Source: Acidimicrobiales bacterium
GTDB lineage: Bacteria > Actinomycetota > Acidimicrobiia > Acidimicrobiales > AC-14
Assembly: GCA_025463925.1 (NCBI GenBank)
Contig: JAODBK010000080.1
Coordinates: forward strand, 1-64,000
DNA: 64,000 nucleotides
Direction of reading: 5' to 3'
Part shown: positions 54,373-59,245 of the stretch, piece by piece
How the letters are laid out: every line of letters starts with the position of its first letter
Numbering within the stretch: the first letter of the stretch is position 1
Position numbers and translations under genes: made by a program
Notes under the pieces: model-generated
Database searches by the model: none
The model's input: the letters and a program-made list of their open reading frames with translations, nothing else
Told to the model about the DNA's origin: nothing

Positions 54373-55331
54373 GCATCCCCCGCCGGTGGTGGGCGCGTGG
54401 CTACCGTCGATCCATCTCCGCTGACGCCGACGACCTGATCCGCCTCTACCTGCGCGAGATCGGAAGCCACCCGCTCCTCACCGCCGAGGACGAGGTCGCG
54501 CTTGCGATCACGATGGAGACCGGCCGGGCCGCCGACGACACGCTCGCGGCGGCGCCGGCGCCGAAGGGCGCGACGGCCAAGCGGCTCCGCGCCGAGTCGG
54601 CCGCCGGGCTCGACGCGCGCCAGCACTTCATCCGGGCCAACCTCCGCCTCGTCGTCTCGATCGCCAAGCGGTACCAGACGAGCGGGCTGCCGCTCCTCGA
54701 CCTCGTGCAGGAGGGCAACCTCGGGCTGATGCGGGCGGTCGAGAAGTTCGACCATCGCAAGGGCTTCAAGTTCTCGACGTACGCGACGTGGTGGGTGCGC
54801 CAGGCGATCAGCCGGGCCATCGCCGACAAGGGCCGGACGATCCGGGTTCCGGTGCACCTCGTCGAGACCGTGACCCAGGTCGGCCGGGCGTCGGCCCGCA
54901 TGAGCAAGGCCCTCGGTCGCGACCCGACGCCCGAGGAGATCGCCAACGCCACCGGCCTGCCCGTCGAGCGGGTGCTGGCGGCGCAGCAGCTCGGCCCCGA
55001 TCCGGTATCGCTGTTCGCGCGCGTCGGCGACGACCAAGCCGAGCTCGTCGACTTCCTCGAGGACCGCAACGCCGAGGCGCCGTTCGACGCCGCGATGGCC
55101 GCGGTCGGCCAGCAGGAGCTGCGTTCGGCGCTGTCGGCACTGTCCGATCGCGAGCAGCGCGTGCTGGAGCTCAGGTTCGGGCTCATGGGCGATCGCCCGC
55201 GGACGCTCGACGAGGTCGGGAAGGAGTTCTCGCTCACTCGCGAGCGGATCCGGCAGATCGAGGCGAAGGCGCTCTCGAAGCTGCGGCACCCGTCCACGCC
55301 GCCGGCGCTGCGCGCGCTCGCGGCGTTCTAA
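54369..55331 (+). CDS. Group 2 sigma-70 factor (SigB/HrdB-like)
   Basis: A sigma-70 of about 320 residues. Region 1.2 is [24 protein letters not shown] (about 20-43). Region 2 contains [58 protein letters not shown], and region 3 follows. Region 4 ends [26 protein letters not shown]. The lack of a long N-terminal 1.1 region points to a stationary-phase/stress type. No ATG, GTG or TTG occurs in frame before region 1.2. The CTG at 54369 overlaps the amidohydrolase stop (CTGA) and is the best candidate, but this is uncertain. Confidence 0.88.
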
Positions 55332-55822
55332 TCGGCGGTCGCCGGGCCTCGCTCCCGGCGGGCCAGCGTCACCAACGCGCCCGCGGCCTCGTGCTGCAGC
55401 TCGGGGAGCTCGCGAGGCGGGAACCAGCGGACCTCGGTGATCTCGGGTGAGGTCGGTCGCACCGATGCCGGATCGGTGCCCGGTGCCGGGCGGGCCTTGA
55501 AGATGACGTCGACCCGGCGAGGCTTCGGGTCGACCACGACGGTCGGCTCACCGACCAGCTCGATGGCGAGGCCCACTTCCTCGAGCGCCTCGCGGCTGGC
55601 CGCATCGGGCGGCGCCTCACCGCGGGCCAGCAGGCCACCGGGGAAACCCCAACGCTTGCGGTACGAATGGCGGACGAGCAACAGCGCGCCGTCGGATCGC
55701 TCGACGATGCAGATCGCTCCCACGCTGAACGACGGCGCGACCCGGCGCACGACGAACCGCCGGCCGCCGACCGGCAGCCGCCGGTACACCTTCAACAACA
55801 GGAGGTGGAGCCGCGCCAGCAC
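55328..55822 (-). CDS. Nudix hydrolase
   Basis: A 164-residue Nudix protein. The full Nudix box (G-x5-E-x7-R-E-x2-E-E-x-G) occupies about residues 63-85 ([20 protein letters not shown]). An upstream [21 protein letters not shown] strand is typical of ADP-ribose or nucleoside-diphosphate-linked substrates. Its N-terminus is basic with a short hydrophobic run. The stop overlaps the convergent sigma-factor gene by four bases. A GC-rich hairpin separates it from whiB upstream. Confidence 0.88.
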
Positions 55823-55849
55823 CGGCCAAGCCTACGTGCGACCCCGCTG

Positions 55850-55882
55850 GGCCCCGCGCCCCTCGGGTGGGACGCGGGGCCC
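55850..55882 (-). terminator. GC-rich hairpin downstream of whiB
   Basis: The perfect 10-bp arms GGGCCCCGCG and CGCGGGGCCC flank a 13-base loop. The hairpin lies 66 bases after the whiB stop and 28 bases before the Nudix start. It has no T-run but is likely to end whiB transcription. Confidence 0.5.
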
Positions 55883-55947
55883 GCGATTGACCGGCCGGGT
55901 TGCCGGAGACGGTTCGCGTGCTGCGTCACCGTCGCCGCCGGCCTGGA

Positions 55948-56247
55948 CTATGCGCTGATCGGCTGCCGGGCGTGCTTCGGCGGCCGGCCACGAGGGCGCT
56001 TGAACGCGAGGACCTTCCCATTGAGGAAGAGCTGGCCGCCCCACACGCCCCAGGGCTCGCGCCGGGCGAGCGCGCCTTGGAGGCAGTCGTCTCGCAGCGG
56101 GCAATCGCCGCAGATCGCCTTGGCGTGCGCGATGTCGTCGAGCTGCTCCGAGAAGAACAGCGCGACCATCGTCCCGGCGCTGTCGTTGCACCGGGCCTCG
56201 GCCCATTGCCCTCGCTCCTGCTCATCGACTGCCAGTTGGGCGAACAT
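55948..56247 (-). CDS. whiB7: WhiB7-like iron-sulfur transcriptional regulator
   Basis: A 99-residue WhiB protein. The [4Fe-4S] ligands are Cys20, Cys46, Cys49 and Cys55 (CGDCPLRDDC). The sigma-contact turn is EPWGVWGG (64-71), and a C-terminal AT-hook follows, KRPRGRPPK. The EPW before GVWGG and the RGRP AT-hook are the marks of WhiB7, the activator of intrinsic drug resistance in mycobacteria and streptomycetes, which binds the housekeeping sigma and AT-rich DNA. The ATG at 56247 has GGGGAGAGG upstream. A terminator and a small upstream ORF in the leader point to attenuation control. Confidence 0.85.
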   Translation of the reverse strand: MFAQLAVDEQERGQWAEARCNDSAGTMVALFFSEQLDDIAHAKAICGDCPLRDDCLQGALARREPWGVWGGQLFLNGKVLAFKRPRGRPPKHARQPISA

Positions 56248-56294
56248 CTCGCCTCTCCCCTCTTCCGTGGTCTCGGGTCCTGCGAAAAAATGAA

Positions 56295-56322
56295 GCGGCC
56301 GCCGGGATTTCCCGACGGCCGC
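56295..56322 (-). terminator. Intrinsic terminator/attenuator in the whiB7 leader
   Basis: The 12-bp arms (11 of 12 paired, GCGGCCGTCGGG / CCCGGCGGCCGC on the leftward strand) with an AAAT-type loop are followed by TTCATTTTTTC. This is the only hairpin in the window with a real U-tract. It lies between the small upstream ORF and whiB7, so readthrough would be needed to express whiB7 from the upstream promoter. Confidence 0.8.
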
Positions 56323-56349
56323 TGGCCCTTCACGGAGGTTCCGGTGGTG

Positions 56350-56535
56350 TTACCCGGTACTGATCCCTCCCAGAGCCAGTGGCCGCTCGATGCGATTGCC
56401 GTGCAGCGTCACCTGGACGGTTGCCGGCGTCGCGCTGCGCTTGGTGGCAAACGGCGAGGCGAAGAGCCAGAGCGCGCGCGCGTCGACGCCGCACATGCCG
56501 TTCGGCGTGTCGGCGTACATCGTGCGTGCTGCCAT
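56350..56535 (-). CDS. 61-codon upstream ORF in the whiB7 leader
   Basis: A small reading frame (MAARTMYADTPNGMCGVD... ending ALGGISTG) with GAGGT 8-12 bases before its ATG and a TAA stop 28 bases before the terminator stem. It resembles no known protein. In mycobacterial and streptomycete whiB7, a translated upstream ORF governs whether an antiterminator or terminator forms when ribosomes stall. The same order here suggests this is a regulatory leader ORF, although an independent small protein cannot be excluded. Confidence 0.6.
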   Translation of the reverse strand: MAARTMYADTPNGMCGVDARALWLFASPFATKRSATPATVQVTLHGNRIERPLALGGISTG

Positions 56536-56607
56536 CTGAGCGACCTCGTGATTCGCAGGCCCGAGACGGTCCCGGGCTCGGATATCGGAACACGACCCGG
56601 GTCCGGG

Positions 56608-56613
56608 CGTCAA
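56608..56613 (-). promoter_or_regulatory. Possible -35 (TTGACG) of the whiB7 leader
   Basis: The leftward strand reads TTGACG about 75 bases before the upstream ORF. The matching -10 is unclear (GATATC lies somewhat too far downstream). Several CCCGGG-containing segments between this box and the ORF could pair in alternative leader structures. Confidence 0.3.
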
Positions 56614-56764
56614 CCGAATTACGGCGCCAACCGCCGACCTGGGCGTCCCCGGGGCGTCGTTCACCCGTCGTTCACGAGCGAATTGGGAGGATCGGCTCCC
56701 GGCCGGGTCGAACTGAAACGGAGAGAAGGTGGACTGGGGCGGTCTGTAAGGGGAAAGGGCTGAA

Positions 56765-59245
56765 GTGCGCGCAGGGCAAGCGGCCGCGGACCCGGGCGCC
56801 CCGTGGAAGGTGCGTACCGACGGCAAGTTCTTCGCCCTCGGCGGCGACCGGTTCTCGTTCCGCGGCGTGACGTACGGGACCTTCGGCGCCCGGGAGGACG
56901 GCGCCCTGTTCCCCGACCGAGAACAGGTCAAGCGCGACTTCGCTGCGATGCGAGAGGCCGGATTCACCGTCGTCCGGACCTACACCTCACCACCCGACGA
57001 CGTCGTCGAGCTCGCCGCGGACTGGGATCTGCGCCTTCTCGTCGGCGTCTTCTACCCTGACTGGCGCTATCTCCTCGGCCGGTCACGTCGCGACCAGCGC
57101 CGGGTCGCCGCGGAGGCCCGGGCAACCGTTCGCGCCTCAGCCGCGCATTTTGCCGGGGTCGAGCACGTCCTCGCGCTCTCGCTCGGCAACGAGGTCCCGG
57201 CCGACGTGATCCGCTGGGTCGGCACGACGCGGGTCGCTCATGTGATCGAAGACCTCGCTGAGATCGTCCGCGAGGAGGACCCCGACCAGCTCGTCACGTA
57301 CGCCAACTACCCCACAGCGGAGTACCTGCCGCTCGAGAACCTGGACTTCCTTACCTTCAACGTGTTCCTCGAGCGTCAGCCGGACTTCCGGCGGTACCTC
57401 ACCCGCCTCCACCACCTGGCAGGTGATCGACCGCTCATCCTTGGTGAGATCGGACTCGACGCGGGGAATGACGGGGCCGGGAGCCCGGGCGAGCTGCACC
57501 AGGCGGAGGTGCTCGACTGGCAACTCGCGACGGCACTCGAGCGCGGTGTGGCAGGCACATGCCTTTTCTCGTGGACCGACGAATGGAGCGTCGCCGGCCA
57601 ACGTGTCGAAGGATGGCATTTCGGGCTCACCCACAGTGACCGATCGCCGCGTCCGTCACTCACCGTCGCTGCGCACTGGAACGGCACGACCGTCGCCGAT
57701 CTCGAATACCCCTGGCCGAGTATCAGCGTGGTGATCTGCGCGTACAACGCGGCAGCGACGCTCGACGAGTGCCTCCGCCGCACGGCCGCGCTCGACTACC
57801 CGTCCCTTGATCTGCTCGTCGTCGACGACGGGTCGACGGATGACACCGCCGCCATTGCTCGGCGTTACGACAACGTCCGGCTCGTCACCATCGAGCACGC
57901 CGGCCTCTCCACTGCCCGCAACGCCGGCCTCGCCGCGGCGCGCGGCGCGCTCGTCGCGTATCTCGACGCCGATGCGTATCCGTCCCGCGAATGGCCGTAC
58001 TTTCTGGCGCTCGGAATGGACAGCGCGACCGTGGGCGGCGTCGGCGGGCCCAACGTGCCGCCGAAGGACGATCCGCGCGGAGCTCATCAAGTAGCGCGGG
58101 CCCCCGGCGGCCCGGTTCACGTCCTGCTCAGCGACGATCGGGCCGAGCACGTCCCGGGCTGCAACATGGCGTTCTGGAAGCCGGTGCTCGCGGAGGTCGG
58201 CGGATTCGATCCCATCTACACCGCGGCGGGTGACGATGTCGATCTCTGCTGGAAGGTACTCGATCGGGGATGGGAGATCGCGTTCCATCCTGCGGCGCTC
58301 GTGTGGCACCACAGACGTCCCGGGCTCAGGGCCTACCTCAGACAGCAGCGGGGCTACGGGAAGGCCGAGGCGCTCGTCGAGGCGCGCCACCCGGACCGAT
58401 TCACGCCATTCGGCACGGCTCGCTGGCGCGGCAGCATCTACGACTCGTTCACGCCGCGCCGAGTGCGGGGCCGTGTCTATCGCGGTCTCTACGGTGCGGC
58501 GAGCTACCAGTCCGTGTACCGCAGCGGCGGACACGCGCTCGACATCGCGCACCAGGTCGGTGTACCGGTCGCGGTCCTCGGGTTGGCCAGCGCGCCATTC
58601 GCCACCGTTCGGCCGGCGTTCGGGATGCCGGCGGTTCTCGCCGCCACAGTGCTCGTGTTCCTCGGCCTCATTGACGCGAGCCACACGCGGCCACCCGGCG
58701 GTGTGACGCGCCGCATCCGGTTCCGATTCGGCGTCGCGACACTCCACCTGTTCCAGCCCATCGTTCGCACATGGGGCCGCATGCGCGAAGCCAGAAGCGC
58801 TCGGCGACTCCCACGGTCGGCCACGCTCGCCGTGCCGGTCCGCCGGATCGGTCGAAACGTGTGGTTGTTCGCAGCCAACGGCCCACGCGCCGAACTCGCG
58901 GCCGCGCTCGTCTCGCGCCTCCGTTCCGTCGGCCTTCGCGCCGTGTCAGCGACCGGATGGGAGAGCTTCGACGCCCGCCTTCTGGGGTCATTGCTGCTGT
59001 ACGGTGATCTCGTCTCGAGCAGCCATCCCGATGGCTGTGTGCAAGTGACGATGGTCCGACGGCCACGTCTTGTGCGCGCGCTCGCGGTCGGAGTGCTCAT
59101 CGGCGCCGCGGCTCAGCTTTCGATGCCGGTCGGGCTATTCCTTGGCGCGGTCGCGCTCGCTGATCTCGCCCGAGGGCTGTGGCGGACCGGTCCTCGTTTC
59201 CTCGGTCGGACGATCGGCCGTTGGTCTCCCGAGGCGGTCGAATAG
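56765..59245 (+). CDS. Glycoside hydrolase (clan A-like) fused to GT2 glycosyltransferase
   Basis: An 826-residue two-enzyme protein. Residues ~15-310 form a TIM-barrel glycosidase: FSFRGVTYGTFG near the start, the acid/base Glu in SLGNEVPAD (near 141) and the nucleophile Glu in ILGEIGLDAG (near 226). Residues ~318-560 are a GT2: ISVVICAYNAAATL, VVDDGSTDDTAA (near 353), YLDADAYPS (near 399) and AGDDVDLCWKVLDRGW (near 488). Hydrophobic segments near 600-640 and 760-810 suggest membrane attachment. It is the first gene of a coupled rightward glycan operon (next start overlaps its stop). Confidence 0.88.
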   Translation: MRAGQAAADPGAPWKVRTDGKFFALGGDRFSFRGVTYGTFGAREDGALFPDREQVKRDFAAMREAGFTVVRTYTSPPDDVVELAADWDLRLLVGVFYPDWRYLLGRSRRDQRRVAAEARATVRASAAHFAGVEHVLALSLGNEVPADVIRWVGTTRVAHVIEDLAEIVREEDPDQLVTYANYPTAEYLPLENLDFLTFNVFLERQPDFRRYLTRLHHLAGDRPLILGEIGLDAGNDGAGSPGELHQAEVLDWQLATALERGVAGTCLFSWTDEWSVAGQRVEGWHFGLTHSDRSPRPSLTVAAHWNGTTVADLEYPWPSISVVICAYNAAATLDECLRRTAALDYPSLDLLVVDDGSTDDTAAIARRYDNVRLVTIEHAGLSTARNAGLAAARGALVAYLDADAYPSREWPYFLALGMDSATVGGVGGPNVPPKDDPRGAHQVARAPGGPVHVLLSDDRAEHVPGCNMAFWKPVLAEVGGFDPIYTAAGDDVDLCWKVLDRGWEIAFHPAALVWHHRRPGLRAYLRQQRGYGKAEALVEARHPDRFTPFGTARWRGSIYDSFTPRRVRGRVYRGLYGAASYQSVYRSGGHALDIAHQVGVPVAVLGLASAPFATVRPAFGMPAVLAATVLVFLGLIDASHTRPPGGVTRRIRFRFGVATLHLFQPIVRTWGRMREARSARRLPRSATLAVPVRRIGRNVWLFAANGPRAELAAALVSRLRSVGLRAVSATGWESFDARLLGSLLLYGDLVSSSHPDGCVQVTMVRRPRLVRALAVGVLIGAAAQLSMPVGLFLGAVALADLARGLWRTGPRFLGRTIGRWSPEAVE

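Follow-up and report, generated by a model that had tools for sequence, protein, structure and literature searches.

The whiB7 gene of an Acidimicrobiales bacterium (GenBank assembly GCA_025463925.1, contig JAODBK010000080.1; the window analyzed is its first 64,000 nucleotides) is very probably controlled by a ribosome-mediated transcription attenuator whose upstream open reading frame (uORF) appears to be selected for its amino acid content. This reading was built from the parts of the leader, their conservation among relatives, the covariation of both alternative helices, the conservation of the uORF frame and a constraint on uORF composition. For the whiB7 attenuator itself, we regard the case as close to certain. 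The features are collected in Table 1.

Table 1. Features of the whiB7 gene and its leader, in window coordinates
Feature	Position	Strand	Basis or remark
whiB7/wblC orthologue (predicted), 99 aa	55948..56247	-	Pfam, PDB match, AT-hook
Shine-Dalgarno-like GGGGAGAGG of whiB7	56252..56260	-	
U-tract TCATTTTTTC	56284..56293	-	
Predicted intrinsic terminator stem-loop, 13 bp	56294..56323	-	Scan, conservation, covariation, folding
Predicted antiterminator arm B (AGGGCCAGCGGCCG), overlaps terminator 5' arm	56316..56329	-	Covariation; truncated-RNA folding
uORF (predicted translated), 61 codons, all 20 amino acids	56350..56535	-	Frame conservation, codon usage, composition
uORF stop TAA	56352-56350	-	
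Predicted antiterminator arm A (CGGCCACTGGCTCT), inside uORF, encodes recurrent Arg-Pro	56372..56385	-	Fixed-register covariation
uORF Shine-Dalgarno-like GAGG	56547-56544	-	
Extended -10 TGTTCCGAT	56584..56592	-	Predicted transcription start near 56577
-35 element TTGACG	56608..56613	-	
Putative WhiB7 box AATTCGG, AT-rich, immediately 5' of the -35	56614..56620	-	Conservation in relatives

The 99-residue protein is a predicted WhiB7/WblC orthologue. The initial annotation had pointed to a WhiB protein with EPWGVWGG and the AT-hook KRPRGRPPK, and both were found: the four cysteines (C20, C46, C49, C55) and EPWGVWGG correspond to the four-Cys plus G(V/I)WGG signature of the class, and the hook at residues 83-91 corresponds to its C-terminal AT-hook KRPRGRPRK. 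The Pfam Whib model matched at 54.5 bits, over its cut-off, and the best PDB sequence match was M. tuberculosis WhiB7 (7kif; 3.9e-18), with other WhiB proteins far behind (7.8e-7); no NCBIfam model matched. The best WhiB7 matches in GTDB were mostly Acidimicrobiales or Acidimicrobiia records, and among 198 genomes from this order, 132 had a match. The bacterium's own assembly (4.08 Mb) holds six WhiB-domain matches. Around the gene lie a primary-type sigma-70 factor gene converging on whiB7 (54460-55331, + strand), a NUDIX-like hydrolase ORF between the two on the whiB7 strand (55328-55822, - strand), and a large ORF divergent from the whiB7 promoter region (56765-59245, + strand) whose C-terminal part resembles a family-2 glycosyltransferase.

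Between the uORF and whiB7, the hairpin AGCGGCCGTCGGGA-AAT-CCCGGCGGCCGCT, followed by TCATTTTTTC, is a predicted intrinsic terminator with a folding energy, for the hairpin alone, of -28.7 kcal/mol. The initial annotation had placed a hairpin here; its stem comes to 13 bp including one G-U pair rather than 12 bp, and the distances given as 28 and 48 bases agree to within 2 nt with those measured, 26 nt from the uORF stop to the stem and 46 nt from the stem to whiB7. The hairpin was the sole terminator-like site in a scan of 54500-57500, where 0.9 were expected by chance; this count alone is close to chance, and a chance hairpin is excluded because the terminator is conserved across order-level relatives. 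A strict scan for a hairpin with a T-rich tail recovered it in 94 of 110 such relatives, nearly always as RAGGCCGYCGG...CCGGCGGCCTTT, and looser patterns in 105 of 110. In a 31-leader alignment, 96.3% of the terminator cells were paired, a value reached by none of 500 shuffles, and double-sided changes numbered 19 versus 2.6 in shuffles. We also considered that the hairpin might be a generic terminator of the organism, and rejected this given that its core pattern occurs at three places in the genome, only two of them outside the whiB7 leader. Since the core sequence is no habit of the genome, its order-wide conservation needs a second constraint, which would come from a segment in the 3' end of the uORF.

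This segment can be recognized in the comparison of leaders, where an antiterminator is predicted to form from uORF sequence and to overlap the terminator. A single fixed register pairs arm A, which consists of CGGCC and 8 further nt, with arm B, which consists of 8 nt and GGCCG. Across 79 leaders, pairing in the variable region reached 5.24 positions versus 4.02 when partners were shuffled (maximum 4.41 of 1000), and it fell to 2.8-3.8 when the register was offset by 1-3 nt. In the 31-leader alignment, double-sided change was seen at 7 of the 14 antiterminator pairs, and the covariation score of 0.196 versus 0.130 was matched by none of 500 shuffles. Clear compensatory A/B sets include CTGGGCC/GGCCCAG, CTGAGCCC/GGGCTCAG, CTCGGAGG/CCTCCGA and ATGGGGCC/GGCCCCA; the CGGCC motif is missing at its expected place in 26 of 105 leaders. 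A conserved terminator/antiterminator pair, proposed earlier as something to look for in related leaders, is thus present with covariation behind it. On folding, an RNA truncated inside the 5' arm of the terminator spontaneously pairs A to B (-42.1 kcal/mol), and the complete RNA is more stable with the terminator (-58.0 kcal/mol) than with the antiterminator forced (-48.7 kcal/mol; the 5' ends differed). With the terminator preferred in the full-length molecule, the switch is predicted to be kinetic: the antiterminator would be available first, and the movement of the ribosome would decide.

Upstream of the uORF, a putative autoregulatory promoter carries an AT-rich motif of the WhiB7 type before its -35 element. 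A run of A/T ([AT]4+) stands 2-4 nt before TTGAC in 91 of 104 leaders, versus 1.6 expected from mononucleotide shuffles, a null that preserves base composition alone; in most of these leaders an extended -10, for example TGGTNNGAT, comes after the AT-box and TTGAC. In the 4.08 Mb of the bacterium's own genome, the strict box AAWTCNNTTGAC occurs a single time and the full promoter pattern is likewise unique, both at whiB7. A search for the WhiB7 regulon with the strict pattern in this genome accordingly returned whiB7 itself only, so the regulon is either very small or built on less strict sites.

These observations bear on the possibility of a separate small transcript or sRNA that stops at the hairpin, with whiB7 transcribed from its own promoter beyond it. 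A stem with a U-tract can end any unit, but the gap from stem to start codon is only 46 nt, 91 of 104 relatives have the WhiB7-type promoter ahead of the uORF, and the stem shows covariation with a uORF-internal element. A scan with a sigma-70 consensus found no promoter-like site between terminator and whiB7, where a strong separate promoter had been named at the outset as the thing to check; the same scan missed the promoter upstream of the uORF because its -10 is weak. Taken with the conserved upstream promoter, we consider a separate transcript extremely improbable.

The uORF is conserved as a reading frame and is predicted to be translated. Its frame was tested with an independent anchor, the CGG of arm A, in 79 leaders. 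It stays open for 45 codons in 74 of these (other frames, 36 and 53), and in 70 its stop codon falls 26-40 nt short of the terminator (other frames, 14 and 5); the distance from stop to terminator has a median of 30 nt (interquartile range 28-32). Codon usage is of coding type and whiB7-like, with a GC3 of 84%. The 61-codon ORF of the initial annotation was confirmed, and over 105 leaders the terminator, uORF frame, stop position and promoter all proved conserved. Codons of the ORF, which that annotation had suggested aligning, are conserved as to frame, stop and the in-frame CGG of arm A, but the peptide sequence is not.

This last point weighs on the reading in which the uORF encodes a drug-specific arrest peptide of the ErmCL kind, with the nascent chain stalling the ribosome in the presence of macrolides or similar drugs. 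The classical arrangement is just such a uORF before an attenuated resistance regulator, and Arg-Pro, encoded by arm A, recurs near the C-terminus, with the CGG codon in frame in 68 of 79 leaders. However, the recurrence of Arg-Pro can be put down to the nucleotides CGGCC, which antiterminator pairing needs, uORF peptides are unalignable between families, and substitutions between close relatives fall 20/12/12 by codon position in the uORF versus 5/4/34 in whiB7 of the same pairs, which argues that no purifying selection acts on the peptide sequence. A conserved arrest peptide was rejected on this absence of third-position bias in the uORF beside the strong bias in the whiB7 control, and we hold a drug-specific arrest peptide to be very unlikely. 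ErmCL-type regulators are characterized by a conserved nascent-peptide sequence, which the Acidimicrobiales uORF does not have.

What appears constrained is composition. In the last 56 codons of the uORFs of 62 non-redundant relatives, the mean number of distinct residues was 18.56 versus 16.90 under pooled redistribution (sd 0.14, maximum 17.39 of 2000). With one sequence for each of 43 families, which are not fully independent, it was 18.3-18.4 versus 16.8-17.0 (sd 0.17). Outside the last 11 codons, frame 0 gave 17.57 versus 15.95 (sd 0.18). Real gene fragments depart the other way, being over-dispersed (14.66 versus 15.80 distinct residues). Exactly one Tyr was found in 47 of the 62 uORFs (22.9 expected), exactly one Cys in 40 (22.8 expected) and exactly one Trp in 38 (22.6 expected). 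The rare residues Trp, Cys, Tyr, Asn, Ile, Lys and Met are all strongly under-dispersed, typically one each, and are scattered along the uORF with no single homologous place. Of 104 full uORFs (median 63 codons), 43 have the complete set of 20 amino acids, compared with 7% under the pooled null (at most 14%) and 1.5% for protein fragments matched in length; at least 19 occur in 65% (pooled null 26%, protein fragments 6%), and 59% are without at least one amino acid. The starts of the full uORFs were chosen by a heuristic, which plays no part in the fixed-length tests. That uORF composition is under selection we judge probable.

What the selection is for is less firm, and the main rival to a sensor is a by-product of smooth translation: the attenuator would be real, and the near-complete amino acid set would follow from low RNA structure, codon optimality or the avoidance of slow homopolymeric runs. 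The common residues are under-dispersed as well (Ala 0.68, Arg 0.61, Val 0.52), and with codon usage like that of whiB7, selection for smooth, fast translation alone could suffice. Against this, constraints on structure or nucleotides should spare no frame, yet the composition test showed no departure from the nulls for the uORF's frames +1 and +2 or for its antisense. Moreover, the rare and costly residues are specifically raised over gene fragments, per 56 codons, for Cys (0.85 versus 0.45), Trp (1.13 versus 0.65), Tyr (0.95 versus 0.60), Lys (1.61 versus 0.65) and Asn (1.53 versus 0.66). We rate the by-product explanation as possible but rather unlikely. A constrained composition with an unconstrained sequence points instead to sensing of translation and tRNA charging in general rather than to a drug-specific arrest peptide, and selection for general aminoacyl-tRNA sensing is the explanation we consider likely. 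In its most explicit form, which we favor somewhat more cautiously, the leader would encode a sensor peptide with one of every amino acid, at least one codon per amino acid being selected in no fixed order, such that depletion of any charged tRNA or a ribosome-slowing drug would release the same terminator.

From these parts we infer termination, antitermination, induction by drug or starvation, and autoregulation in the following way. RNA polymerase would start at the promoter of the WhiB7-activated type (AT-box, TTGAC and extended -10) and transcribe the 61-codon uORF. Under fast translation to the stop, the ribosome would sit just past arm A and keep A off B, the downstream arm would form the GGCCGYCGGG terminator, and transcription would end before whiB7; in the window, arm A is found about 20-33 nt ahead of the uORF stop, just outside the canonical footprint of a ribosome at the stop codon. 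A ribosome slowed or stalled upstream of arm A would let A pair with B, no terminator would form, and the WhiB7 then made would raise its own promoter. Sampling nearly all 20 amino acids, the uORF would let any shortage of charged tRNA, as well as ribosome-targeting drugs, trip the switch. This would give a simple answer to how one uORF responds to many antibiotics and to starvation, through its amino acid set and the speed of translation and not through peptide sequence. The proposal of the initial annotation that the known drug-sensing riboregulation operates in this lineage holds for a WhiB7 orthologue under attenuation (covariation, frame, promoter); its emphasis on drugs would widen to translation and tRNA charging in general, and its "unrelated leader peptide" is a peptide unconserved in sequence even among relatives and constrained in composition.

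Attenuators with leader peptides control the amino acid biosynthesis operons trp, his and leu. They share with the proposed whiB7 switch the principle that stalling at codons for a scarce amino acid lets an antiterminator replace an intrinsic terminator. Their leader peptides are rich in a single amino acid or in a few, whereas the Acidimicrobiales uORF is evened out to roughly one of each, and its output is a resistance and stress regulator. If the sensor reading is true, the whiB7 leader would attenuate according to translation capacity as a whole, in contrast to classical leader peptides that answer to a single amino acid or to a few. A biosynthetic attenuator with a leader peptide is also found at ilvB1 of M. 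tuberculosis (PMC13236596).

Attenuation of whiB7/wblC by a uORF has been described in Mycobacterium and Streptomyces (Lee, Lee and Roe 2022, Mol Microbiol 117:179, as cited in the available text of PMC11550727, PMC9618640 and PMC10727445; Dinan 2014, PMC4128351). As summarized in the available text of PMC11550727, PMC9618640 and PMC10727445, full translation of the uORF favors the terminator and impaired translation the antiterminator, and the attenuator is induced by antibiotics and by amino acid starvation; the available text of PMC12121999 notes that stalling inside the whiB7 uORF was not directly tested. All tests made here fit this established mechanism. The systems of both genera have, like that of Acidimicrobiales, a uORF, an intrinsic terminator, whiB7 downstream and an AT-rich promoter of the WhiB7 type (PMC3905903), with an antiterminator made from sequence common to uORF and terminator; they differ in their stem sequences and in their uORF, and the Acidimicrobiales uORF stands apart in holding nearly all amino acids including Cys. 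In 50 codons, distinct residues numbered 17.55 in Acidimicrobiales, 16.8 in Streptomycetales-like and 15.7 in Mycobacteriales-like leaders (orders assigned by inference), and mean Cys was 0.00 in Streptomycetales-like and 0.13 in Mycobacteriales-like leaders; both of these have the same architecture with a weak composition effect. Among 17 non-redundant Streptomycetales-like uORFs (leaders L137-L143 and L254-L283), the last 50 codons contain zero Cys and roughly one each of Trp, Tyr, Met and Phe. In E. coli, the toiL uORF of topAI senses several classes of ribosome-targeting antibiotics; it belongs to another organism, gene and architecture, and the available text of PMC12121999 does not describe an all-amino-acid composition.

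In the literature searched, with most subscription journals outside its scope, we found no account of a whiB7 attenuator in Acidimicrobiales and nothing relevant on an all-amino-acid leader peptide. As judged from sequence, the attenuator as such would be of a known kind, and its occurrence in Acidimicrobiales and the near-complete amino acid set are the elements not found there. The whiB7 attenuator would thereby be extended to this order of soil and water bacteria, with comparative evidence for both alternative helices. Rfam searches returned only a tRNA in the window, and all matches to the leaders were below gathering score, with no family assigned. A covariance model of the leader matched in 89 of 148 genomes. 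Its full-length matches stood before whiB7, apart from one exception seen, which proved on inspection to be an ordinary terminator. That this leader might also serve other genes was considered and rejected, as the two off-locus matches inspected (G053:C45 and G141:C42) were ordinary 3'-end terminators. Two relatives of one family carry tandem whiB7-like paralogues (L252, G006:C1:679994-681180; L253, G134:C1:4345982-4347326), G134 with a third whiB7-like copy elsewhere in its genome, and in each of the two genomes the leader model matches before one whiB7-like copy.
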